DNA from: Dyella sp. C11
Lineage (GTDB): Bacteria; Pseudomonadota; Gammaproteobacteria; Xanthomonadales; Rhodanobacteraceae
Direction: 5' to 3'
NCBI RefSeq assembly: GCF_003121485.1
Contig: NZ_QAVX01000002.1
Span: forward strand, 1-64,000
DNA length: 64,000 bases
Positions 42,258 through 55,767 of this stretch are shown piece by piece (position 1 is the stretch's first letter; every line of letters starts with the position of its first letter). The position numbers were made by a program, and so were the translations under genes. Under the pieces are notes generated by a model that worked only from the letters and a program-made list of their open reading frames with translations, made no database searches and was not told the DNA's origin.

Positions 42258-43202
42258 TCACAGCGAAATCGTCGCCGACAACATCGCCGGATTGCCCTTC
42301 AGGCGATTGGTGACGTCGAATTCGTGCAGCCAGCGCAGCGAGAATTCCGCCTGCCCGCCCTGCCACTTCTTCAGGTAGTTCACCATGGGGCCAACGCCAA
42401 TCGAGTGGCCCTTGAAGCCACCCAGCAGGTCCGCCGTGGGACCGGTGTCGTTTTCCAGCTGGTAGATCCAGCCACCTACCGCACCGATGCCCCATCCCGT
42501 GGGAAAGCGCTTCACCAGCAGGGTATCCAATCGATACACCGCGCCGTTCTGGTAGTTGGTTGCCTTGTCCCTGGTGTAGAAGTCCACCGCCGTGGTGGCG
42601 CTCCACTCCAGCGAACCCTTGTCGAACAATCCGGTGTAGCCCACCGTGGGCGAGAACGTCCACATGTTGAGGCTTGCATTGGCCAGGCGGCCGTCCTTGT
42701 AGTCGCCGGTGGGGGCGTAGACGTAAAGCGAGAACGAGACGTGCTGCGTCTGGCTGAAATGATGGCTGGCAATCACCGGCGCGAAGAACATGTCGTACGG
42801 CCCGAGCACGTGTGACGAGCGGCTCGCGCTGAAAGGCCCGATGCGTGCGTTGACGTTGGCATCCACGTACGCGAACGGCAGCGTCATCATCGAGGCAAAG
42901 TTCCATGACGACGGCTTGGTATTCCAGATGTACAGGCCCGTGATGGTGGCCAGCTGGAATTCCGCCTTGAGGCCCAGCGACGTGCCGCCACCGGCGATAG
43001 GCACCTGCCTGGAAGCGCTGATCGAACCATCGTAGTACGCGTAGCCGTATTGCCAGGTAAGCCCGGGCGTGGGCGGGATCAGGCCGGAATACGAGGTGGC
43101 TTGCAGACCCGTGATGGAACGCCCCACACCGGTCTCCGTGGCATGCAGCGGCAACGCGACCAAGACGACCAGCAAGGCTGCCCATAGCGCGACTCGTTTC
43201 AT
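42258..43202 (-). CDS. Outer-membrane protein, MetA/SphA-like transporter family
   Basis: A 314-aa protein with a signal peptide (VALWAALLVVLVALPLHA) and a beta-barrel pattern ending in an aromatic/hydrophobic strand (PAMLSATISL). Blocks such as GLYIWNTKPSSWNFASMMTLPF, YDMFFAPVIASHHFSQTQH and VYAPTGDYKDGRLAN are characteristic of the 'phenol MetA degradation' outer-membrane family, which may carry hydrophobic compounds. It lies on its own; distantly similar in type to the barrel at 2116. Confidence 0.8.
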   Translation of the reverse strand: MKRVALWAALLVVLVALPLHATETGVGRSITGLQATSYSGLIPPTPGLTWQYGYAYYDGSISASRQVPIAGGGTSLGLKAEFQLATITGLYIWNTKPSSWNFASMMTLPFAYVDANVNARIGPFSASRSSHVLGPYDMFFAPVIASHHFSQTQHVSFSLYVYAPTGDYKDGRLANASLNMWTFSPTVGYTGLFDKGSLEWSATTAVDFYTRDKATNYQNGAVYRLDTLLVKRFPTGWGIGAVGGWIYQLENDTGPTADLLGGFKGHSIGVGPMVNYLKKWQGGQAEFSLRWLHEFDVTNRLKGNPAMLSATISL

Positions 43203-43436
43203 GACAGCTCCGAACCCTCAGCGATGCGGCGGCTTGCACGTCACGTGAAGCAAAAAAGCGCCGTCAGGTGGTCGCAGCGTCTCCGGATCACCGGGTTCAA
43301 ACAAGCGAAAATCCACCTATGCCGACTAGGTAGAACTACGGAAACCGACGCCCTTCCAACGCGGCAAGAACGTCGTTCCCGCAACATCGCTCGATCATGC
43401 AAAGGAATCGCCGTACAACGCCTTCCACGCGCGCTT

Positions 43437-45392
43437 TCAGATGGCTGCGCTGGAAGGCACCGCTGCGTTGCCGCCTTCCGGAAAGCGGGCAATGGCTTGC
43501 TGGGCGGCCTGCTCCAGCGACGTCACGAACTCGTTGACGTTTTCGTTGAGCGGCGGCGCCACTTCTGCCGCGGCGAGCGGTTCGGGGAACATCACGCCGA
43601 CGATGCAGGCGTGCGACATGCGGGCATGGACGAGAGCCACGGCATCGTCGAAGGCATCGCGCTCCTTCACCGGGCTGGTGCTGACCACGTAAGCCATCGA
43701 CACGGCCTTGGGCGTCAGGTCCGGGTGCGCCTGCGCGTCGAACGATTCGAAATCCGCGATGGAAATGTGGCGGGCATCGATATGCAGGTCCCGCAGGATG
43801 CGCGTGAGCAGTTCGGTGGAAAGATCGTCCGCCATCGAGCCCAGGCCCATGCACAGCACGATCGATCCCGGCGCCACCGCCAACGGACCCTGGAACTGGC
43901 CCATGGCGTCCTCGCGATGCTGACGCAGGCTCTGGCCGATGGTCATGCTTTCAAGCACCGACGTGCGGCGACGCCAGCGCAGCCAGCGGCTTTCATGGCT
44001 GTCGAGCGACTCGACCACGGTGACGATGGCCTGCTTCACCGACAGTTGCTGCGCCGTGCTGATGGCGCCATTGGCCAGGTCGATGCGTGCCAGCTGCAAC
44101 GCGGGCAACAGCACGGCATCGCAATAGGCGGCGAAGCTTTTGCGCTTCAGGAAGTCGCGCGCCTCGCTGATGATCTCGCTCGAATCACCCGACAGCGCGC
44201 GCTGGTACACGCGTTGCGGCATGGTAAGTGCCGGCGTGTCGCCCAGCAGGATGTTGAGCAGGTCCAGCGCCTGCACATGGCGTCCTGCGACAACCAGGCA
44301 CAAGGTCAACGGGGTCGACATCAACAGTCCCACCGGCCCCCACAGCCAGCTCCAGAAAATCGCCGCCACGACGACGGCCAGCGGCGACAGGCCGGTGGTG
44401 TGGCCATAGAGGAACGGCTCGATCAGCTGCGACACCACGATCTCCACCACCAGGTAGAGCACCAGCGTCATCCACAGCAACGACCAGCCCGGCGCCACCG
44501 CCGCGGCGAACACGCTGACCAGCGCCGCCACCAGCCACACGCCGATATAGGGCACGAAGCGCATGGCCGCGGTAAGCAATCCCCACAGCAAGGCATTGGG
44601 AACGCCGATCAGCAGCAGCCCCAGCCAGCTCGCCACGCCTACGCCAAAATTCACCGAAAAGGTGGAAAGAAAAAAGCGCGACAGTCGTTCGCCGGCGTCG
44701 ATGATCGCCGCCGTGGTGGCGCGAAGGTCCGAACCGCCCGCCAGGCGGATGAAGCGATCACGCAAGGATTCGTGCTCCAGCAACACGAAGATCAATACCA
44801 CCAGCACGATGCCCGCCGTCTCCACCGGCACCCACGCGGTGGAAAGCACGCGCGTGAGAATGCCCACGGGCGTTGACGGTGTCTTGGTCGCCTGCGTCGA
44901 GGGCTTCGGCGTTGCCGGTGCGTTGGTGAGATAAGGCGGCGCAAGGAACGGCTGCGCCGCCGTTGCACTGGGCGCGGGCGTGCCGTCCTGGCCCGAATCA
45001 TCAATCACCTTGCCCAACTCGCCGCGCACCACGTCCAGCCGCCCCAGCGTTTCCTCGCGCAACGACTGCGCCTTGGCACGGATGGTCACTTCGTACTGCG
45101 GCAGGCTGCGCGCCACGTGCACCACCTGGGTGCCCATCATGGTCGTCACGCCGGTGACGATGACCACCAGGGCCACTACGGCGATCAACACCGACGCGGT
45201 GTGACCAAAGCCGATGCGTCGATAGATGCGCACCCACGGCGCCATCAACAGGCTGAGAAACAGTGCCAGGATGATCGGCACCAGCACTTCCCTGCCGAAG
45301 TACAGCAGCGCGAGCACGCACGCCAACGCAACAATGACGACGGCACGTTGACTCGCCGTCGCGGCGGTCTGTGCTGGGGGTTGCGACGACAT
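43437..45392 (-). CDS. AI-2E/PerM-family membrane protein with C-terminal soluble domain
   Basis: A 651-aa protein. Residues about 20-370 are an AI-2E exporter-family membrane region with about eight helices (VIVALACVLALLYFGREVLVPIILALFLSLL, then RFVPYIGVWLVAALVS and GLLMSTPLTLCLVVAGRH). An additional 270-280 residue soluble part follows, with a Rossmann-like stretch (GSIVLCMGLGSMADDLSTELLTRIL, about residue 530). Typical family members are about 350 aa. I start at MSSQPPAQ, with GGAG upstream; the open frame continues 53 residues earlier. Transport substrate unknown. The end is not marked by a terminator. Confidence 0.8.
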   Translation of the reverse strand: MSSQPPAQTAATASQRAVVIVALACVLALLYFGREVLVPIILALFLSLLMAPWVRIYRRIGFGHTASVLIAVVALVVIVTGVTTMMGTQVVHVARSLPQYEVTIRAKAQSLREETLGRLDVVRGELGKVIDDSGQDGTPAPSATAAQPFLAPPYLTNAPATPKPSTQATKTPSTPVGILTRVLSTAWVPVETAGIVLVVLIFVLLEHESLRDRFIRLAGGSDLRATTAAIIDAGERLSRFFLSTFSVNFGVGVASWLGLLLIGVPNALLWGLLTAAMRFVPYIGVWLVAALVSVFAAAVAPGWSLLWMTLVLYLVVEIVVSQLIEPFLYGHTTGLSPLAVVVAAIFWSWLWGPVGLLMSTPLTLCLVVAGRHVQALDLLNILLGDTPALTMPQRVYQRALSGDSSEIISEARDFLKRKSFAAYCDAVLLPALQLARIDLANGAISTAQQLSVKQAIVTVVESLDSHESRWLRWRRRTSVLESMTIGQSLRQHREDAMGQFQGPLAVAPGSIVLCMGLGSMADDLSTELLTRILRDLHIDARHISIADFESFDAQAHPDLTPKAVSMAYVVSTSPVKERDAFDDAVALVHARMSHACIVGVMFPEPLAAAEVAPPLNENVNEFVTSLEQAAQQAIARFPEGGNAAVPSSAAI

Positions 45393-45989
45393 GGGCTCTC
45401 TCCTCTCCACCACGGTATCGCCGGGATCTGCGCCCCGGCGTGCCGCAAGGATAGCCGCGCCTCGGGCATTGGAGATGTCAACCTGCTCGAAACCGCCCAG
45501 CGATACAGCTTTACACGCCATTGTGCCGCCGAAAGCCGCGCCGGGCGTCACAGCAGCCCCCAGGCCACAAGGTCATACAGGGCTTGCAACAGCCACTAAT
45601 AGTGCGAGCTGGTACCCAGCATAGCGGCCTGCCGCACCGCCTGTGCGGCACAGATGGGACGCAGCTCCCAAAAGAACCCACGCAAATGCATGCGTGAGAT
45701 ACGGGTACACAGCGCCAACTGAGAATTGCCCATGTAATGGGGCTGCATATAGTCCCTCCAGAGCACCGCGCAGGGCTGGCGAGCCGGCCGCGTCTGGACG
45801 ATCTGGAGTGGTGGGTGAACAGGCAAGCGAAGCATGGGTGTGGATGTTCTGTAGGGCGCTGGCGACGCAGCCCCAGCACGCGCACTTCAGTGTGTGGGCT
45901 TATTCCGAAAGAGCCTGTCCGTTCTCGCCTAGGTGTGGCGCAACAGCCCAAGAGCCGTCGCGCCACGGGGAACGATCACAAGGACGGGG

Positions 45990-46319
45990 TCAAGCGTTCA
46001 CGGTGGGCACGTGGCCGTGCCCAAACGCTGCCCGCTCCAGACAGTGAATGGCTATCGAGAGCGCAGCCGTTACCTCCGCCGACAGCGGATACTGCAAAGG
46101 TTTGACCGGGAAACCCCACACCCGCGCCTTGCGATACCGGTCGCTGTTGCGGCGCAAGCGCACTAGCGTCAACACCGCGAGCGCCGTGTCGACCGGATCG
46201 TAGGGAAGGAGTGCTTCTACAGGTAAACCCGGTGAAAACGGGCTGCCGGGAGGTTCCGTGAGGGTGTCGTCGTCGGGAAACGACGGGCGTGCGCGTGCCG
46301 TATGATCGCGGATAGCCAT
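45990..46319 (-). CDS. Possible small protein, unknown function
   Basis: A 109-aa open frame beginning MAIRDHTARARPSFPDDD, with a Pro-rich first third (PPGSPFSPGLPVEALLP) and a more hydrophobic remainder (VDTALAVLTLVRL; LSAEVTAALSIAIHCLERAAF). A weak GAAGAG site precedes the ATG. It starts 31 nt after a stack of three hairpins. No family recognised. Layout, not sequence, recalls small phage-type genes downstream of structured leader RNAs. It may not be a real gene. Confidence 0.35.
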   Translation of the reverse strand: MAIRDHTARARPSFPDDDTLTEPPGSPFSPGLPVEALLPYDPVDTALAVLTLVRLRRNSDRYRKARVWGFPVKPLQYPLSAEVTAALSIAIHCLERAAFGHGHVPTVNA

Positions 46320-46349
46320 GATCAACTCTTCTCTAGTTGGTGATGGTTA

Positions 46350-46489
46350 GCGGGTCGCAGGTGTTTCAGCACCTGCGGCCCGCGTCTGATGGCATCGCTG
46401 CCACCGTCACTCGCGCAGGCCGGTAAAAGACGGCGCGAGTGACGTGCCGAAAGTAGCAAAGCCCCACCACGCTGACTGTCGGGCTTTGC
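46350..46489. ncRNA. Stack of three strong hairpins, candidate structured RNA or leader
   Basis: Hairpin 1: 46350-46383, 14 bp with one G-U-type pair (GCGGGTCGCAGGTG / CACCTGCGGCCCGC). Hairpin 2: 46406-46443, 11 perfect bp (GTCACTCGCGC / GCGCGAGTGAC). Hairpin 3: 46456-46489, 9 perfect bp (GCAAAGCCC / GGGCTTTGC). Three tight helices in 140 nt exceed what neighbouring gaps show. The strand is unknown: it leads either into the small minus-strand frame or towards vgrG. Confidence 0.45.
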
Positions 46490-46718
46490 CGATAGTTCGG
46501 TTCGCACACGGACCATTCGGCGCACGGCTGGGCGCAACCGTTCCTTGTGCATCGCCTGTTGCACCGCCCATGCCGAGCGCGCAAGCGACCAAGGCCGGGA
46601 TATCGCCGACATTATGGACGGCCAAACCTGTCGCTGGTATCGGCTTTACCTGATTGGCGACTCGCATTCATGCGCCTCACGCTGCGCAGCTTCCATCGTT
46701 TGTGCCAAGGAAACGCTT

Positions 46719-49700
46719 GTGCCACGCCACAGTGATATTCGCTTCACCTTCGAATCCGCCAGCAGCGTGGCTTTTGACGTGGCCGGCTTTCGGCTGGAGG
46801 AGTCCCTCAGCCAGCCGTTTGTGCTGAATGTGGACCTAAGTAGCTGCAACCCTTCGGTAGATTTCGGGCAGGTGCTGGATCAACCCGCCTGCCTGACCAT
46901 CTGGCGCGGCGAGCAGCCCATTCGATACGTCCACGGTGTGGTGTCGACCGTGGAGCAAGGCACCACCGGTTTCCGCCGCACCCGGTATAGCGTTGTAGTG
47001 GAACCGCGAATGGCCCGTGCGGGCCTCCGCAGCAACTGGCGTATCTCGCAGCAGCAAACCGTGCCAGAGATTCTACAAACCGTACTCAAACGCTCGGGCG
47101 TTATCGATGTCGAGCAGCGATTGAGCAAAGAGCATCTGCCGCGCGAATACTGCGTGCAACCAGGCGAGAGCGATTTGGATTTCTTTCAACGCCTGAGCGC
47201 CGAAGAGGGTCTTTATTACGCGTTCGAACACAGCGCCCACGGCCATCGCCTGATTCAGGGCGATGTGCTTTACACCCACGGCGTGATTCCCGGTGGACCG
47301 GTCACCTACAACCCCATGCCCGCCGGCGATTCGGACGAACCGTGCCTGCACACGTTCCGTTACACCGAAAACGTACGCACCGCGCGTCAAGTGCAGCGCG
47401 ATTACACCTTCAAACACCCGCGCTACAACCAGCAACACGCCAGCGATGGCAACAACCTTACCAACCAGGCGCGGGACTACGAACGCTACGACTATCCCGG
47501 CCGCTACAAGCAGGACGAGGCCGGCAAGCCGTTCACCAAAACGCGCCTGCTCTCGCTACGCCGCGATGCGCAAGTGGCCACTGTCGAAGGCGACGATGCG
47601 CGCCTGCAACCGGGCTTGGCGTTCGATCTGCAGGGGCACCCCCGTGAGGCGTGGAATACCGGCTGGCGCGCTATCGCCATCGTGCATACCGGCGTCCAGA
47701 ACATTAGCCAGGAAGAAGACAGCAGCGATGCCACCACCGGCACCCACTACAGCTATACAGCAGAGATCATCCCGGACCAGGTGGAATGGAAAGCACCGCT
47801 ATGTCCCAAGCCCCGCATTGACGGCCCGCAGATCGCCACCGTGGTGGGTCCCCAAGGGGAGGAGATTTTCTGTGATGAGTTTGGCCGGGTAAAAGTCCAG
47901 TTTCCCTGGGACCGTGAGGGCAATCACGACGAGCACAGTAGTTGCTGGATACGCGTAAGCCAGAACTGGGCTGGAGCCGCGTGGGGTCACATGGCCCTTC
48001 CGCGCATCGGGCAAGAGGTGATCATTGGCCACCTGGATGGCGACTGTGATCAGCCGATTCTTATAGGGCGCACGTACCCGGCCACCCACCCCACGCCCTA
48101 CGAACTGCCGCGCCACAAAACGCGCATGACCATCAAGAGCCAAACCCACAAGGGCAACGGCTCGAATGAACTGCGTTTTGAGGACGAGAAAGACCAGGAA
48201 GAAATCTACGTCCACGCCCAGAAAGACCAGAACATCATCGTCAACAACGACGAGACCACCCGTATTGGTCATGACCGCCAAGAGAATGTCGAGAACGACG
48301 AAACCATCCGCATCGGCCACGACCGCACCGAGAGTGTGGGCAACGATGAACAGGTGACCATCGGCAGAAATCGCACGCATCAGATCGGCCAGGACGCGTT
48401 TCTCAGCATCGAACGCAATCACGCCATCAACATTGGCAAGGATCGCCATGAAACGGTGGGCAATAACCGTCACGACAAAACCACAGCCAATCACGTCATC
48501 GATATCGGCGGTCATGTCGAGCAGACCGTGCAGGGCCATCACAAGCTCAGCGCCGGTCAAAGCATCGAGCGACAGACGCAGCGCTATCAGCTACACGCCG
48601 GTGAGAGCATCGAAATCAAGGTCCAGGCCGGAAGCATCACGATCGATAGCAACGGTATCGTCATCGACGCGCTGAAAATCCTGATCAAGGGCCCCGTGCA
48701 GCAATCTTCTGGTGCTTATACCGGCGCTGCCTGGCACGGCGCGGCGTTCGCAGAATCCCTGCTAGCCCCCTTTATCACCGCCCCCATCGCACTTACATGC
48801 GCAGCATGGTCCGAGGGCGGAACCACCGGAACGCAGGGCTACGATACGCACACAGCATCAATGGCGCCCCAGGCAACTGATCAACCAGCAGCGTCCGAAA
48901 ATAACGCCACCAAGGACACTGCAACGCCTCCATCCGTGCCCCATACGCCAGCGCCTATGACGTGCGACTGGAAGCTGAAGTCGTTCAAGGAAACCCACTG
49001 CAGCATGCCGATGGAAACGGCGACTTACTACCAGTTGGACGAAAACAAGCGACATGTTTTGGACCGAGATGGCAAGCCCACGCTTTGCAGCGGGCCAGCG
49101 ACCATGCCTTTTGAGCTGGCGTTCGATGGTGACGCGAAAGTGCTTACCGCCGCGGTGCGAATAGCGGTGAAGCTCAAGGACATGTACGAACTCGATGCCG
49201 TAACAGGCAAGCCAAAAGCCGACACGGAGGGGCGTCCCATTGGAGTGCCCTACGACAGCACTGGTAATGGCAGTAACGCCCCTCCAGAAGTGCGTGCCAA
49301 ATTTCTCGTGGCAAACCGTTCAGTGGCCACCTTGGACTTCACTGGTCTCAAGCAGCGCATTGAGCGTGTCCTCAACCAGAACAACTACCGGCTGACGCTT
49401 AGTGATTGTGCACAGGGCGCCGCGTGTGGCTGCATCGTACCCGTGCAATTCGTGGTTCATTTCTTGGATCCGGGAGTCAAAGGACAGGGCAAGCCTCACG
49501 ATTCGATTGATCTTTTCCCGAGAGCGGTGAGAGCTGATGCCGGCAGCTGGAGCGAATTGACCGTGAGCTTTGACAAATTTCGCAATGAATTTGTAACTAC
49601 GGCGGTCGAATGCATTAGCGCTCATGAAGCAGGTCATTTATTCAGCTGGCCAGACGAGTATTGGTCCAACGGTGGATCAATTCATCAGCAATACGTCAAA

Positions 49701-49889
49701 CAACAAGAAATCGATTTCACCAAGGGCGATGAACTCAAAGGCCAATTGGTTTGGCAATTGAATACCGATGATACCTTGATGGGCTACGGCGCCTATAAGA
49801 ACTCCGTGCAAACCCCTGAGTACTACCTTTATCGCATCCGCGATTGGTTCACGCGTAAGACGGGCAAGCGATGGAAGTTAACGACATGA
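46719..49889 (+). CDS. vgrG: VgrG spike protein with C-terminal HExxH metallopeptidase-like extension
   Basis: A 1056-aa type VI secretion spike. Gp27-like base (about 1-360), gp5 OB-fold (about 370-470: GEEIFCDEFGRVKVQFPWDR, split over strands; PRIGQEVIIGHLDGD), needle of repeated 'G.DR.E.VGNDE.IRIG' units (about 505-625), then a linker and a C-terminal extension of about 300 residues. HEAGHLFSWPDEY (about 969-981) has the zinc-protease HExxH motif, suggesting an enzymatic effector fused to the spike. The start is GTG with AAGGAA 6 nt before it; longer in-frame starts have no such site. No other type VI genes are in the window. Base composition is visibly lower in G+C near the end. Confidence 0.9.
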   Translation: MPRHSDIRFTFESASSVAFDVAGFRLEESLSQPFVLNVDLSSCNPSVDFGQVLDQPACLTIWRGEQPIRYVHGVVSTVEQGTTGFRRTRYSVVVEPRMARAGLRSNWRISQQQTVPEILQTVLKRSGVIDVEQRLSKEHLPREYCVQPGESDLDFFQRLSAEEGLYYAFEHSAHGHRLIQGDVLYTHGVIPGGPVTYNPMPAGDSDEPCLHTFRYTENVRTARQVQRDYTFKHPRYNQQHASDGNNLTNQARDYERYDYPGRYKQDEAGKPFTKTRLLSLRRDAQVATVEGDDARLQPGLAFDLQGHPREAWNTGWRAIAIVHTGVQNISQEEDSSDATTGTHYSYTAEIIPDQVEWKAPLCPKPRIDGPQIATVVGPQGEEIFCDEFGRVKVQFPWDREGNHDEHSSCWIRVSQNWAGAAWGHMALPRIGQEVIIGHLDGDCDQPILIGRTYPATHPTPYELPRHKTRMTIKSQTHKGNGSNELRFEDEKDQEEIYVHAQKDQNIIVNNDETTRIGHDRQENVENDETIRIGHDRTESVGNDEQVTIGRNRTHQIGQDAFLSIERNHAINIGKDRHETVGNNRHDKTTANHVIDIGGHVEQTVQGHHKLSAGQSIERQTQRYQLHAGESIEIKVQAGSITIDSNGIVIDALKILIKGPVQQSSGAYTGAAWHGAAFAESLLAPFITAPIALTCAAWSEGGTTGTQGYDTHTASMAPQATDQPAASENNATKDTATPPSVPHTPAPMTCDWKLKSFKETHCSMPMETATYYQLDENKRHVLDRDGKPTLCSGPATMPFELAFDGDAKVLTAAVRIAVKLKDMYELDAVTGKPKADTEGRPIGVPYDSTGNGSNAPPEVRAKFLVANRSVATLDFTGLKQRIERVLNQNNYRLTLSDCAQGAACGCIVPVQFVVHFLDPGVKGQGKPHDSIDLFPRAVRADAGSWSELTVSFDKFRNEFVTTAVECISAHEAGHLFSWPDEYWSNGGSIHQQYVKQQEIDFTKGDELKGQLVWQLNTDDTLMGYGAYKNSVQTPEYYLYRIRDWFTRKTGKRWKLTT

Positions 49890-51298
49890 ACAAGGCATGG
49901 ACTAGGGGATTGATGATGGTGATGGCGATACTCGGCAGTGCGGTGACATCGGTAAAAGACACGGTCGCAGAACATTCGAACGAATCGGTGTCGATATCCT
50001 TCGACATAGGCGGCGGCATGGGTTACGGCGTGCGGCGACTCAGTGCCACTACCCGCGATGGCACTTTTCGCCTTCTGCTCACTGACACGGAAAATCTCGA
50101 GGACTTCGTGGGCGTTGGGGTCTTTGATGGCGAGTTAAGCGACGAGGATCGCGCCCATGTCCAAGAGGCAGCACTTTTGTTGTGTCGCTCACAAAGCCAG
50201 CTACAAAACAGCCCCTCGGACATGGGGCGTGGCCAAATGAACAACATGCCCATGGCGGGCTACAGCGCAACTTGCGGTGGAACCGCAGTACAAGGTTCGC
50301 TTTACACGTGCCCCAAAGAGATCGGAGATCGGGTACGAGACATCGAATATCGACTAGCGAAATCGTTCTACTCGCATGGCCGAAAGGTGGTGAAACTGGA
50401 TGTGGAGGCAAAGGTCGAGTCGCAGCCGTACAACTTTCTGGTCACGGTACGCTTTGTTAATTCTGGAGATCGGTCGATCACATTCAAAAGTCCGGCGCTT
50501 TGGTCTGGAATACTCCCTCTAGCGCAGCTACGAGCAGGTGGTAGAAATCCACAGAGCCGTCACATCGGCGATAACGAGAACTCCGGCGGCTTTATCTTCG
50601 ACCTATCTGGACTAACTCCCATCAACGCATCTGCTTTTCCAGATGACGTCATTGTTATCCCCCCACACGAAACTAGCGAAATTACGTTCCTCGCGGCACC
50701 GGACGGCAAATATACGCACGGCACTTATGACTTTGGGGCGACCGTGTATGCCGACATCCATGTCGATGGGCCGGAATGGTCGGGTGGTCATGTCGATTTT
50801 TGGACGGGCATTCAAAACGTCAAACGCATCACCATTCCCCGTGACTATCCCGCCACCCCACAGGAATGGGACGACTACGAGGCCAAGCACCGCAAAGATA
50901 TGTTGGCCGAGCCAGTGAAAGCAGGCGGCATCGTCAAGGAGGATGGCTACTACCGCCCCAACGCCGGCGAGCAGCAAGGGCGTTTCGTCACCCGCCTACT
51001 CAAGGGCGATTTCACGCCCGGCAGCGGTGAACAGCAAGACAGCAACGGCACATTGTTCACACCTACACAGTGGGTATGGGATTCCGATATCGCCAGCACA
51101 GTGGAAGCGCGTTCCAAAACGCCCTGCCCCAAGAGCGGCCGCTGGCTCGCCAACATTCCCACCGACGTACCCAACGCCGGCTACTACCTGCAGCGCGTCA
51201 CGGTGGTGCAAATGAAAGCTGGCGATACGTTGCCAGCGGTTGGATTGGGCAGCGGCGTCGATGAGGAACGCGTGCGCTGGGTGTGGATCGGCCCTTGA
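49886..51298 (+). CDS. Exported protein coupled to vgrG, candidate immunity protein
   Basis: A 470-aa protein with an N-terminal signal peptide (MNKAWTRGLMMVMAILGSAVTS), so it should be periplasmic or membrane-anchored. The ATG overlaps the vgrG stop (ATGA), giving strict coupling. The C-terminal segment (SGRWLANI..AGYYLQRVTVVQMKAGDTLPAVGL..VRWVWIG) is the most patterned part and loosely recalls small beta domains of type VI immunity proteins. An export signal fits protection against a toxin delivered to the periplasm. It could instead be an accessory that helps the toxin act. No family is recognised with confidence. Confidence 0.7.
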   Translation: MNKAWTRGLMMVMAILGSAVTSVKDTVAEHSNESVSISFDIGGGMGYGVRRLSATTRDGTFRLLLTDTENLEDFVGVGVFDGELSDEDRAHVQEAALLLCRSQSQLQNSPSDMGRGQMNNMPMAGYSATCGGTAVQGSLYTCPKEIGDRVRDIEYRLAKSFYSHGRKVVKLDVEAKVESQPYNFLVTVRFVNSGDRSITFKSPALWSGILPLAQLRAGGRNPQSRHIGDNENSGGFIFDLSGLTPINASAFPDDVIVIPPHETSEITFLAAPDGKYTHGTYDFGATVYADIHVDGPEWSGGHVDFWTGIQNVKRITIPRDYPATPQEWDDYEAKHRKDMLAEPVKAGGIVKEDGYYRPNAGEQQGRFVTRLLKGDFTPGSGEQQDSNGTLFTPTQWVWDSDIASTVEARSKTPCPKSGRWLANIPTDVPNAGYYLQRVTVVQMKAGDTLPAVGLGSGVDEERVRWVWIGP

Positions 51299-51406
51299 AA
51301 GAATAAACGACGCTCAGCCACGATGCCTCTTGCGTATCCAACCGTGCCTGGTGTGGCGTAGCGCCAAGTCTCCTCGCGCGATCGTCAGTCCCCTGCAGCC
51401 AAGGAA

Positions 51407-51868
51407 TCAGGCCGCTTCGCTTTCCAGCGGCAGGCGGCAGAGGCGACGCACGTCCAGCAGCGCCACGAAGCCGCCCTTGGTCGGCAGCACGCCGTGCACG
51501 GGATCGTCGTCGCGAGCGGCGCCGCCAGGCAGCGGCGGAGCGATGTCGGCGGGACGGGCTTCAAGCAGGTCGCCAATGGCATCCACGCGGATGCCGACCA
51601 GGTGCGTGCCGTGCGACAGCATCACCAGGCGCACCTGGAACGGGTCCACACGGCCTTCCTCGGGCAAGCCAAGACGACGCCGTCCGTCCATCACCGGCAC
51701 GATGCGTCCGCGCAGGTGGCGAATGCCGAGCAGGTCGGAAGCCGAACCGGGCACGGGCGTCAGTTCGCCATCGCGAAGCACTTCGCTCACCTGCGTCAGC
51801 GGTGCGGCGTACAGCTGCGCGCCGATGCGGAAGGAAAGCCAGTGATCGGCGTTCGATGCGTAGTTCAT
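51407..51868 (-). CDS. cheW: CheW-like coupling protein (flagellar operon)
   Basis: A 153-aa CheW-domain protein (HWLSFRIGAQLYAAPLTQVSEVL; IRHLRGRIVPVMDGRRRLGL; GGFVALLDVRRL). It is the last gene of the flagellar chemotaxis operon, 52 nt after motD. The start MNYASN has GGAG 8 nt upstream. In Pseudomonas this position has two CheW-type proteins and a ParA-type ATPase; here only this one is present. The next segment downstream is the vgrG island. Confidence 0.88.
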   Translation of the reverse strand: MNYASNADHWLSFRIGAQLYAAPLTQVSEVLRDGELTPVPGSASDLLGIRHLRGRIVPVMDGRRRLGLPEEGRVDPFQVRLVMLSHGTHLVGIRVDAIGDLLEARPADIAPPLPGGAARDDDPVHGVLPTKGGFVALLDVRRLCRLPLESEAA

Positions 51869-51920
51869 GGCGTCGACTCCGTTGCGGTGGCCGTGGTGGC
51901 CGGTATCACGTTCATGCAAT

Positions 51921-53054
51921 TCATGGGCCATGCTCAGGCGACGCGAGACGCGTCGAACCCGCCGTGATGGTGCCGGCGGCCACGTCGGGCAACGCGGGGG
52001 CCTGAATCGGCTCTGCCTGCTGCTGCGCGGTGCGCTCGGGCCTGGCCAGGATCACCTTGTTCACCGGCACATCGGCGGTGGGTCGCGGTGCGACCACCTC
52101 CACCGTGGGTGCCGGTGCCTGCCCCGCTGCGTCATGTGCTGCCGCGATGGCGGCAGTCGCTGCCGGTGCGGAAGACGCGGCGGGTGCCGGCGTGGCGTCC
52201 GACCCGGCGGTGAGCGTGTTGTCGTTGAAGAAGCGCTTGGGCGCGTCGTCTTCGCTCAGCACCACGATCAGCACGCGGCGATTGTGGTTGCGGCCGTCTT
52301 CGGTGGCGTTGTCGGCGCTGGGTTTGTATTCGCCCCAACCCATGATGCCCAGGCGCGAGGGTTCCACGCCCTGCTCGGAAAACAGGCGCGCCACGCTGGC
52401 GGCACGGGCGGCGGACAGCTCCCAGTTCGAGGGATACAGCGCCGTATTGATCGGGCGATCGTCCGTATAGCCTTCGATGCGCACGGCATTGGGGAACGGC
52501 TTGAGGATCGACGCCATGTTATCGAGCACATCGTTCGCCTGGGGCGACAGCTTGGCTACGCCGCTGGCGAACAGGATGTCGGTGCGCAGTTCGATCTCCA
52601 GCCACGAGGTGGTCTTGCGCACGATCACCATCTGCTTGTCGATCAGCGGCTGCATGGCGCGCACCACCTGGTCGCGAATCACTTCCAGGTTGCGCTTCTC
52701 GGGCGTGTCCGACGGTGCACGCGTATCCACCGCGCGCACCAGTTGCGGACGGGCCGGAATCGGCACGCTGACGGGAATGCTCGCAGCGCCCGGCTGGCTC
52801 GCGGGCGCCGCAATGGCCGGGTCGATGTTGTGCGGCTGCACGCGCGTCTGCGGCATCGGCGCGATCACGTGGCTGGAGCCGTTGAACGCCTCGATGATGG
52901 AGTTGGACATCACACGGTATTTGCCTTCGTTCACCACCGACACCGCGTACATCACCACGAAGAAGGCGAGCAGCAACGTCATCAGGTCGGCATAGGGAAT
53001 GGCCCATGCCTCGTGATTCACGTGGTCTTCGTGGTGTTTTTTCTTCCTGGCCAC
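51921..53054 (-). CDS. motD: Flagellar motor stator protein MotD
   Basis: A 377-aa MotB-type stator. The essential proton-carrying Asp is in IPYADLMTLLLAFFVVMYA (about residue 23), followed by a plug/linker and an OmpA-like peptidoglycan-binding domain (about 145-265: GYTDDRPINT, LSAARAASVARLF, GWGEYKPSADN, NRRVLIVV). A Pro/Ala-rich tail of about 110 residues follows. With MotC it forms the second-type stator known from Pseudomonas and Xanthomonas. It starts 12 nt after motC. Confidence 0.94.
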   Translation of the reverse strand: MARKKKHHEDHVNHEAWAIPYADLMTLLLAFFVVMYAVSVVNEGKYRVMSNSIIEAFNGSSHVIAPMPQTRVQPHNIDPAIAAPASQPGAASIPVSVPIPARPQLVRAVDTRAPSDTPEKRNLEVIRDQVVRAMQPLIDKQMVIVRKTTSWLEIELRTDILFASGVAKLSPQANDVLDNMASILKPFPNAVRIEGYTDDRPINTALYPSNWELSAARAASVARLFSEQGVEPSRLGIMGWGEYKPSADNATEDGRNHNRRVLIVVLSEDDAPKRFFNDNTLTAGSDATPAPAASSAPAATAAIAAAHDAAGQAPAPTVEVVAPRPTADVPVNKVILARPERTAQQQAEPIQAPALPDVAAGTITAGSTRLASPEHGP

Positions 53055-53066
53055 TGCGCGCTCCCG

Positions 53067-53807
53067 TTAGGCCAGGTAGCCCTGAAGCTTGGCTTCGATC
53101 TGGCGCGGGTTCGCACCCTCGGCGATCGACACCAGGCCTTCAATCAGGATTTCGCGCATCTGCGTCTGCTTGTGGATCAGCGCCTTCAACCGCGCGGCCA
53201 TCGGGATCATCAACAGGTTGGCCAGCGCCACGCCGTAGATGGTGGCGACGAAGGCGGCCGCAATGCCGTGGCCGAGCTTGCTCGGGTCGGCAAGGTTCTG
53301 CATCACCGCCATCAGGCCCATCACGGCACCGATGATGCCCATGGTGGGCGAGAAGATGCCTGCGTTTTCGAACACTTTCGCAGCGGCAAGATCGTGATGC
53401 TCGCGCGCGCCCACTTCCACTTCCAGCACGCCGCGAATCGCTTCGGGCTCGCTGCCGTCCACCAGCAATTGCAGGCCCTTGCGTACGAAGTTGTCGCTTT
53501 CCGAATCGATCTGCGGTTCCAGGCTAAGCAGGCCCTGGCGACGCGAGATTTCACTCCAACCCACGATGCGGCTGATGAGATCCGACGGTTGATGCTGGGG
53601 TGGCTTGTACACCAGCGGGAACATCGACATGGCGTGCTTGAGCACCTTGCCGGAGTTCTGCACCAGCAACGCGGCGATGGTGCCGAGGAACACGATGACG
53701 AACGCAGCCGGATTCCACAGCGCTTCCACGCTGGAACCCTTGAGAATCGTGCCGACGATGATGACGATGAACGCCAGGATCGTGCCGATGAGACTTACCA
53801 GATCCAT
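53067..53807 (-). CDS. motC: Flagellar motor stator protein MotC
   Basis: A 246-aa MotA/ExbB-family protein with four membrane helices: two at the start (VSLIGTILAFIVIIVGTIL; AAFVIVFLGTIAALLV) and two near 150-200 (SPTMGIIGAVMGLMAVM; GIAAAFVATIYGVALANLLM). The cytoplasmic loop carries the charged region used for FliG contact. It pairs with MotD and begins 1 nt after cheA ends. Confidence 0.94.
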   Translation of the reverse strand: MDLVSLIGTILAFIVIIVGTILKGSSVEALWNPAAFVIVFLGTIAALLVQNSGKVLKHAMSMFPLVYKPPQHQPSDLISRIVGWSEISRRQGLLSLEPQIDSESDNFVRKGLQLLVDGSEPEAIRGVLEVEVGAREHHDLAAAKVFENAGIFSPTMGIIGAVMGLMAVMQNLADPSKLGHGIAAAFVATIYGVALANLLMIPMAARLKALIHKQTQMREILIEGLVSIAEGANPRQIEAKLQGYLA

Positions 53808-53808
53808 G

Positions 53809-55767
53809 TCAGCCGCTCACCGTCAAAGAAGAAAGTAGTTGGCCATCACTGCCTGAAAGGCCAGCCAGATCCATCACCAGTGCGAGGCGACCGTCGCCAG
53901 TAACCGTGGCGCCGGCAACCGCAGGCACCCCCTGGAACAGCGGGCCCAGCGGCTTCACCATCACGTCTTCGCGTCCCAGCACTTCGTGCACCAGGCAGCC
54001 CAGGCGCATGTGGCCGATGTGCAGCACCACCACGTGACGACCGGCAGGGCCTTCCACGCCCACCCAGCCGCCGAGGTCGGCCAGCGCCAGCGCTCGGCCG
54101 CGATGCGACGCCACGGCGCGACCATCCAGCTGTTGCTGCTGTCCCGCGGCGAGTTCGAACACTTCGTCCACGTTCGACAACGGCAGTGCAAGCAGACGCG
54201 CACCCACGCGCACCATCAACACGCGCTGGATCGCCAGGGTCAGCGGTACCGCCAGTTCCAGCGTGCTGCCCTTGCCCAGCTGCGAGCGCACCGACAAGGT
54301 GCCGCCCAGCTCCACCACGCGCGTCTTCACCACGTCCATGCCCACGCCGCGACCGGAGATGTCGGAGACGGTGGCCGCCGTGCTGAAGCCGGGGCGGAAG
54401 ATGATTTCGTAGCATTCGTTTTCGGTGAGGCGCGAGGCCTGCGCCTCGTCCATCAAACCCTTCTCCACCGCCTTGCGGCGAAGCACTTCCGGGTTCATGC
54501 CGCGTCCGTCGTCGGACACGGTGATGATGATGCGTTCCCCGCGCTGGCTGGCCGCGAGGGTCACCTTGCCCTTGCGCGGCTTGCCGGCGCGATCGCGTTC
54601 TTCCGGCATTTCCAGGCCGTGATCCAGCGCATTGCGGATCAGGTGCACCATGGGATCGGCGAGCGCTTCGACCAGGCTGCGGTCGAGATCGGTGTCCTCG
54701 CCTTCCTGCAGCAGCTCCACTTCCTTGCCGAGCTGGCGCGACAGATCGCGCACGATGCGCGGAAAGCGCTGGAACAGACGGCCCACCGGCTGCATACGCA
54801 TGCCGAGCACGGCGTTCTGCAGCGCATCGGCCACGCGGTCGAGTTCGGTGGCGGCGAGTTCCAGCGTTTCGTCGCCCGTCCTGGCGGCGAGGGTCAACAG
54901 GCGATTGCGCACCAGCACCAGTTCACCCGCGCGGTGCACCAGCGCATCGAGGCGCGCGGTGTCCACGCGCACGGTGTTTTCCGGTGCGGGCGCGGCCTGC
55001 TTGGCGGCAGGTGCTGACGGCGCGGGCGCTGCCACCGGTGCAGGTGCCGGCGCGATGGCACCTGGCGGGGCGCCCTTGCCGTGAAGATTGTCGAGCAGCG
55101 ACTCGAATTCGTCGTCCGAGATTGAGCCCGACGCAGAGGACGCTGCAGGCGCGCTGGTCGTGGCGACGGGTGCGCCACCTTTGCCGTGCAGGTTGTCCAG
55201 CAAGGCTTCGAATTCATCGTCGCTGATGCTGCCGGAAGCAGCCGGCGCCGCAGCAGGTGCGCCCGGCGAACCGCCCGTGCCATAGAGGCTGTCGAGCAGT
55301 GCCTCGAATTCCGAATCGTCGATGGTGCCGTCACTCGGCGGCGGTGCCACCGGGGGCGCCACGGGTTTGGGCGGTGGCGTGGCCGCCGCACCGGGCATGA
55401 GGCGCGCCAGCAGGCTCGGCGGCGGCATTGCCATGGGGCTGCCGCCAGCCAGTGCCGCCAGCATGTCGTTGAGCAGGTCCAGCGCTTCGAGCAGCGCATC
55501 CATGCGGTTCGCATCGAGCACAAGCTGCCCGTTGCGCGCCACGTTGAGCAGGTCTTCGGCGTGATGGCACAACTGCACCATCGGTTCGATGGCAAGAAAA
55601 CCCGCGCCGCCCTTCACCGTGTGGAACGCACGAAACACGGCGTTCAACAGGTCGGCGTCGCGCGGCGAGGTTTCCAGCCCGATCAGCTGCTCGCCCAGGC
55701 GCTGCATCAACTCTCCGGCTTCCACCAGAAAATCGTTGCGCAGCTCGCTGTCCAACGTGGGGTCCAT
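53809..55767 (-). CDS. cheA: Chemotaxis histidine kinase CheA (flagellar operon) with three repeated acidic peptides
   Basis: A 652-aa CheA: P1 domain with His49 in FHTVKGGAGFL, then a linker of about 150 residues instead of a clear P2 domain, then dimerisation, ATPase (LIRNALDHGLE, VSDDGRGMN, GRGVGMDVV) and CheW-like domains. The linker has three copies of a 'S/D-EFEALLDNLHGKG' peptide (encoded at 55272-55329, 55174-55233 and 55072-55128), spaced by Ala/Pro stretches. They resemble the CheY-binding tail of CheZ and may dock CheY. It starts 15 nt after cheZ ends. Confidence 0.94.
   Translation of the reverse strand: MDPTLDSELRNDFLVEAGELMQRLGEQLIGLETSPRDADLLNAVFRAFHTVKGGAGFLAIEPMVQLCHHAEDLLNVARNGQLVLDANRMDALLEALDLLNDMLAALAGGSPMAMPPPSLLARLMPGAAATPPPKPVAPPVAPPPSDGTIDDSEFEALLDSLYGTGGSPGAPAAAPAASGSISDDEFEALLDNLHGKGGAPVATTSAPAASSASGSISDDEFESLLDNLHGKGAPPGAIAPAPAPVAAPAPSAPAAKQAAPAPENTVRVDTARLDALVHRAGELVLVRNRLLTLAARTGDETLELAATELDRVADALQNAVLGMRMQPVGRLFQRFPRIVRDLSRQLGKEVELLQEGEDTDLDRSLVEALADPMVHLIRNALDHGLEMPEERDRAGKPRKGKVTLAASQRGERIIITVSDDGRGMNPEVLRRKAVEKGLMDEAQASRLTENECYEIIFRPGFSTAATVSDISGRGVGMDVVKTRVVELGGTLSVRSQLGKGSTLELAVPLTLAIQRVLMVRVGARLLALPLSNVDEVFELAAGQQQQLDGRAVASHRGRALALADLGGWVGVEGPAGRHVVVLHIGHMRLGCLVHEVLGREDVMVKPLGPLFQGVPAVAGATVTGDGRLALVMDLAGLSGSDGQLLSSLTVSG

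Follow-up and report, generated by a model that had tools for sequence, protein, structure and literature searches.

The vgrG gene and its tail

The window analysed here is a stretch of 64,000 nucleotides from Dyella sp. C11 (Rhodanobacteraceae; RefSeq assembly GCF_003121485.1, contig NZ_QAVX01000002.1, positions 1 to 64,000, numbered from its first letter). It carries a vgrG gene whose product, a spike protein of the type VI secretion system (T6SS), ends in a predicted protease-like domain, the tail, and which adjoins a second gene, the partner. A sequence-only reading of the stretch had proposed a protease-like effector domain on VgrG and an exported immunity partner, and the analysis below supports the former as a predicted domain and the latter as a protein that is predicted to be exported and is probably, judging from its sequence, an immunity protein. 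The genes and their main parts are as follows.

46719..49889, + strand: vgrG with a predicted C-terminal effector extension (matches to TIGR03361, Phage_GPD, Phage_base_V and Gp5_trimer_C)
46719..48713, + strand: canonical VgrG core, residues 1-665 (alignment to a tail-less sibling VgrG)
48714..48959, + strand: linker, residues 666-747, boundaries approximate (where the alignments of tail-less VgrGs end)
48960..49886, + strand: predicted metzincin-like effector domain, residues 748-1056 (AlphaFold2 model, PDB fold comparison and 15-row alignment)
49623..49661, + strand: HEAGHLFSWPDEY, residues 969-981, with proposed zinc ligands H969, H973 and D979 and proposed base E970 (conservation in 15 rows)
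49779..49790, + strand: MGYG, proposed Met-turn (M1021; Met-Gly invariant in 15 of 15 rows)
49886..51298, + strand: partner gene, predicted immunity protein of 470 amino acids (adjoins the tail in 15 of 15 aligned loci, with homologous partners)

The vgrG frame runs from a GTG start at 46719 to a TGA stop at 49887-49889 (1056 amino acids), and its product matches TIGR03361 as a full VgrG domain (596.9 bits for a cut-off of 186.35, E value 2.9e-179). A tail-less sibling VgrG, a 740-amino-acid open frame, shares 73% identity with the core over 700 aligned residues, an identity that collapses past residue ~665-700; likewise, the alignments of three tail-less VgrG frames of 731-740 amino acids (genomes G052 and G056) stop at residue 666-701. 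The extension noticed earlier therefore exists, but at ~350-390 residues it is larger than the roughly 300 first counted; residues 748-1056 of it were modelled as one domain. These comparisons mark the protein as a probable specialised (class III) VgrG, with a C-terminal domain absent from the canonical VgrGs of the genus and predicted to be toxic.

Motif and fold of the tail

The HEXXH motif occupies residues 969-973, within HEAGHLFSWPDEY, so that His969 and Glu970 stand where the sequence-only reading had placed them, and 11 of the 14 columns in and around the motif are invariant across the 15-row alignment. At position 11 of the metzincin signature HExxHxxGxx(H/D), Asp is present in all 15 tails, and the invariant Met-Gly sits, in sequence spacing, 48 residues past the second His in the window's protein. 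The Gly expected at position 8 is absent from all 15 tails, which have Asn, Ser or Ala instead, and for this reason the domain is named metzincin-like rather than metzincin.

The AlphaFold2 model of residues 748-1056 has a predicted local distance difference test (pLDDT) score of 86.4 and a predicted template modelling (pTM) score of 0.84, and metzincins come first among the PDB fold matches listed for it. Pfam and NCBIfam give nothing on the tail except a 21-residue, sub-threshold match to an M6 metalloprotease model, TIGR03296 (19.9 bits for a cut-off of 110.8, tail residues 219-239 only), which weakly matches 15 of the 15 members (best E value 5.1e-6). Like the window's protein, snapalysin (M7) and M6 peptidases such as InhA show AHExGHxxxxPDxY with Asp at the third-ligand position; the likeness is limited to ~22 residues, however, the window's protein falls far below the M6 cut-off, its family replaces the Gly with Asn, Ser or Ala, and snapalysin and InhA are secreted enzymes that are not known to be fused to a spike. 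The resemblance to M64 (IgA-peptidase) enzymes proposed earlier is not favoured by these results and was rejected as unsupported, since Pfam M64 (PF09471) reaches one of the 15 members, below its cut-off and at an E value of 0.15, and does not match the window's own.

It is unlikely that the tail belongs to another zincin class, either as a diverged gluzincin of the VgrG2b or Tpe1 kind or as an unassigned zincin whose resemblance to metzincins is superficial. The Glu that serves gluzincins as third ligand has no invariant counterpart in tail residues 240-300 of the 15 rows, where the best Glu column reaches 13 of 15 and the window's protein has Tyr; DUF4157 matches neither the window's protein at E values up to 10 nor the 15 members at E values up to 1. 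The invariant Met-Gly also argues against another class, as do the listed fold matches, 33 of 39 of which are metzincin proteases (class assigned from titles). Membership of the VgrG2b family was rejected on the third ligand and the lack of a DUF4157 match; the VgrG2b structure 6H56 is not among the matches listed for the tail, an absence that we do not count as evidence.

Recurrence of the tail and its partner

A contig profile scan with a single-sequence query found nothing, and a three-row query gave 14 further loci with the tail domain, each with an adjoining partner gene, a recurrence that takes the finding beyond chance. In wider samples, the tail was found in one of 369 genomes of the class and one of 398 of the phylum, in both cases the window's own; in the phylum sample, many genomes had some but not all of their candidates scored. 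At all 15 loci the partner start lies close to the effector end, from 43 bases ahead of it to 14 bases past it (in L015, an overlapping upstream ATG is open too). In the window its ATG (49886) overlaps the vgrG stop as ATGA, in agreement with the coupled start described earlier, and the frame runs for 470 codons to 51298; a start at the upstream in-frame ATG (49871) would lengthen it by 5 codons.

The VgrG cores of ten relatives were compared with the window's by BLAST, and eight of them, from D. monticola and seven Burkholderiaceae, show 22-24% identity to it, against 32-39% identity for the tails; the core of L009 is 57% identical over 128 comparable residues, and that of L022 has no BLAST match and is 22% identical in the alignment used for the core-control correlations below. 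Judged by these identities, the tail module is shared more than the spike. Two species each carry two tail-partner loci, namely Paraburkholderia solisilvae (L017 and L018, whose tails are 73% identical) and P. hiiakae (L015 and L022).

Several relatives are damaged or incomplete: the vgrG frame of L011 is broken, the partner of L012 is frame-broken (recognised by eye), that of L020 ends early, and those of L009 and L010 reach the contig end. Such breakage in L011, L012 and L020, together with the fact that protease activity is itself a prediction, could be taken to mean that the tail has lost its protease activity and is now a structural extension of the spike, or a module in decay. We consider this highly unlikely for the window, whose frame is intact, whose motif is invariant and whose core shares 73% identity with the sibling VgrG.

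Tail relatives were found in neither viral contigs, phages nor plasmids, and relatives of the L015 partner were not found in plasmids; carriage by a phage or plasmid was rejected on the absence of tail relatives. A role in anti-phage defence was also rejected, as PADLOC matches neither the window's tail nor its partner.

Two halves of the partner

Searches of Pfam, NCBIfam, PADLOC and PDB sequences gave nothing credible for the window's partner. The protein divides as follows.

49886..49960, + strand: signal-peptide-like N-terminus, residues 1-25 (hydropathy; the pattern recurs in 14 of 14 aligned partners)
49886..50917, + strand: N-domain, residues 1-344, co-inherited with the tail, boundary set by us (Mantel r 0.92)
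50918..51295, + strand: C-module with CPKSGRW, residues 345-470, apparently exchanged (r 0.48 with the tail; L011/L016; stand-alone copies in G088 and G089)

The signal peptide claimed earlier for the partner is borne out as a signal-peptide-like N-terminus by hydropathy, a measure other than SignalP: the top 12-mer near the N-terminus, from residue 9, scores +2.38, against a best value of +1.34 beyond residue 60.

Pairwise identities of the tail and of the partner N-domain correlate strongly (12 of the 14 aligned pairs). With the VgrG core as a control (8 loci), the correlations are 0.89 for tail and N-domain, 0.64 for tail and core and 0.52 for core and N-domain (p = 0.0004, 0.018 and 0.038, respectively); without the window (7 loci) they become 0.90, 0.50 and 0.47. 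The C-module tracks the tail less closely (r 0.48, p 0.002), and leaving out the two Dyella rows lowers r to 0.21 (p 0.06). Between L011 and L016 the C-modules are 92% identical, for tails at 42% and N-domains at 39%, which points to apparent recombination within the immunity genes, and L017 and L018 show the same trend. The partner is conserved, with an N-terminal and a C-terminal half that evolve in different ways; the simplest account would be an immunity protein in which the N-domain is specific to the toxin and the C-module is generic.

The partner profile matches in 7 of 233 genomes of the family: three with tails, and G061, G088, G089 and G232. In G088 and G089 (loci L074 and L075) the C-module occurs by itself, in a small protein whose start is signal-peptide-like, with no tail match there, and in G232 the N-domain lies in a 375-codon frame. 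Separately, a second partner homologue in G059 (L068, contig C306:1-1181), which starts at the contig edge, is 39-40% identical to the window's partner and is the closest to it seen in the genus; no tail was found for it.

An insertion beside cheW

The pair lies among genes for an AI-2E transporter, CheW, MotB, MotA and a CheA-like kinase, the flagellar and chemotaxis neighbourhood described earlier, within one further feature.

45458..51406, strand not assigned: insertion with the pair, lying between cheW and the AI-2E transporter gene (flanks adjacent in 5 of 6 siblings; G052 alignment gap)

CheW is present in 20 of 20 genus genomes, and the cheW-side region was compared in six siblings (G047, G048, G050, G052, G061 and G062). 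The AI-2E gene and cheW are neighbours in five of them, with 18-105 bases between the flank-aligned stretches, and the G052 alignment stops at 45457 and restarts at 51407. The vgrG-partner pair is an insertion at a site empty in five of six siblings. The G+C content is 53.1% in the tail, 56.5% in the partner, 59.5% in the VgrG core and 64.1% in the window, and the two low values counted earlier in the tail are exact (45.0% at 49561-49620; 40.0% at 49681-49740). Upstream of vgrG, the ~1.2 kb of 45458-46718 hold four short open reading frames (45514-46612) with no Pfam match. Insertion targeted to a tRNA was rejected, there being no tRNA in 43000-54000.

In the sixth sibling, G061, a partner-like gene of 425 codons lies beside cheW (L066:8400-10464); its product is 23% identical over 372 residues to the window's partner and ends ~40 residues short of those of the family. 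After the gene the 3' end of cheW appears again (91% over 122 bases), and the AI-2E gene was not found in the stretch fetched beside cheW. The position of the partner-like gene, with the intact cheW on one side and this duplicate on the other, suggests an insertion that used the end of cheW; the borders of the window's insertion, unlike these, show no repeats beyond 11 bases. G061 has no tail match and no VipB match, and its only VgrG-like sequence is a remnant with three stops. By sequence, the partner-like gene looks like an immunity gene that persists as an orphan with neither toxin nor machine, or it may instead be in decay.

These distributions bear on another reading, which we regard as distinctly unlikely: a tail whose protease targets eukaryotes or acts across kingdoms, and a partner that, instead of conferring immunity, is an exported chaperone or a factor secreted along with the tail. 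The occurrence of partner modules without a tail in G088, G089 and G232 would suit it, and fragilysin, which acts on animal cells, is among the fold matches of the tail. VgrG2b has also been proposed to be trans-kingdom (PMC6899460). However, strict pairing and tight co-inheritance with a divergent exported partner form the pattern of an effector and its immunity protein, and a T6SS chaperone would not explain a partner-like gene kept where no VipB is found.

A type VI secretion system elsewhere in the genome

The absence of other type VI genes reported earlier describes the neighbourhood: none of the genome's VipB, Hcp and PAAR matches, the last at four places, falls on the window's contig, although the remaining T6SS families were not searched across the window. 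It does not extend to the genome, since contig C3 of the same draft encodes the nine core components checked, namely TssB, C, F, G, H, J, K and L and Hcp, all above their cut-offs. The VgrG is thus an orphan locally, as had been stated, but the genome has this cluster and, beside hcp on C3, a vgrG cut to 151 codons (136565-136957; L024:4647-5102). Profile (PF05954) and core-protein searches of the 46-contig draft found only this fragment and the window's vgrG. The latter being the only intact VgrG seen, it is probably the spike of this T6SS, if the system works, and the truncation on C3 means that the machine may depend on it.

Discussion

Gene structure, conservation, recurrence and co-inheritance of the pair, the T6SS genes and the insertion at an otherwise empty site are established directly. 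From these we infer secretion, zinc binding, proteolysis, a periplasmic site of action and immunity, and we put at about 0.7 the probability that the pair consists of a class III VgrG with a metzincin-like zinc endopeptidase, delivered by the T6SS to the periplasm, and an exported immunity partner. The T6SS encoded elsewhere in the genome would fire the spike, and the tail would reach the periplasmic space of a Gram-negative neighbour. With zinc held by His969, His973 and probably Asp979 and with Glu970 as general base, it would there cleave an envelope protein of the prey. The exported partner would give periplasmic protection to the producer and its kin; its N-domain would recognise this toxin, and its C-module would be shared and exchangeable.

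For secretion, zinc binding, cleavage and neutralisation, this account leans on analogy with VgrG2b/PA0261 and SARI_02727/02726 (Tpe1-Tpi1), pairs tested by others in which a VgrG-borne or T6SS-delivered HExxH enzyme likewise has an adjoining gene for an envelope-exported immunity protein (PMC6899460; PMC12992299). The vgrG2b gene of P. aeruginosa, like the window's vgrG, lies outside the T6SS core clusters, and the authors of its study could not identify a substrate that it cleaves (PMC6899460). VgrG2b is described as a gluzincin whose third ligand is Glu983, with orthologues that often carry the annotation DUF4157. By these descriptions, the window's tail is set apart from VgrG2b and Tpe1 by having no invariant Glu and no DUF4157 match, and by its Asp at the metzincin position and its Met-Gly, and the partner is set apart from PA0261 by its size (470 codons) and by going unrecognised in Pfam, NCBIfam and PADLOC.

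The putative VgrG2 of Enterobacter bugandensis is also an evolved VgrG with a metallopeptidase tail but, compared by its available description, a gluzincin predicted in silico (PMC10763514). Tox-MPTase1-5, HopH1-like and PVC-metallopeptidase domains likewise place HExxH at the C-termini of secreted toxins, and one polymorphic-toxin HExxH domain is reported fused, once, to a T6SS base-plate protein in Burkholderia; PVC-metallopeptidase differs from the window in its HExxHxxQ and its Glu on a later helix (PMC3482391). None of the 7 Pfam families matched by the 15 members at E values ≤1 is of a polymorphic-toxin type, the coverage of those types by Pfam being unchecked. No metzincin VgrG, T6SS effector or polymorphic toxin was found in the open-licence PMC literature, where the nearest candidates were judged unrelated by title; the supplementary data of PMC11148199, which surveys specialised T6SS effectors by structure, may contain members of the window's tail family.

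As VgrG-borne metallopeptidase toxins with exported immunity are already known, the kind of system is known too; the tail and partner families themselves go unrecognised in Pfam, NCBIfam and PADLOC. A bolder combined view, which we rate as somewhat less likely than not, is that of a first metzincin-like T6SS effector family on VgrG, in Dyella and Burkholderiaceae, with a large modular immunity protein whose toxin-specific N-domain is inherited with the toxin and whose C-module is exchanged, and with the gene at the cheW site of the toxin-less sibling as an acquired defence.

A Xanthomonadales T6SS survey of 2019 detected no bona fide specialised VgrG among its genomes (PMC6653060), so that the window would add one to the order. 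The VgrG metallopeptidase effectors classed in the literature compared here are gluzincins, and a second, unrelated protease type that reached the same compartment would be an independent handle on vulnerable envelope proteins. With the partner, in turn, one could test directly how specificity is kept in an immunity protein that swaps a module.
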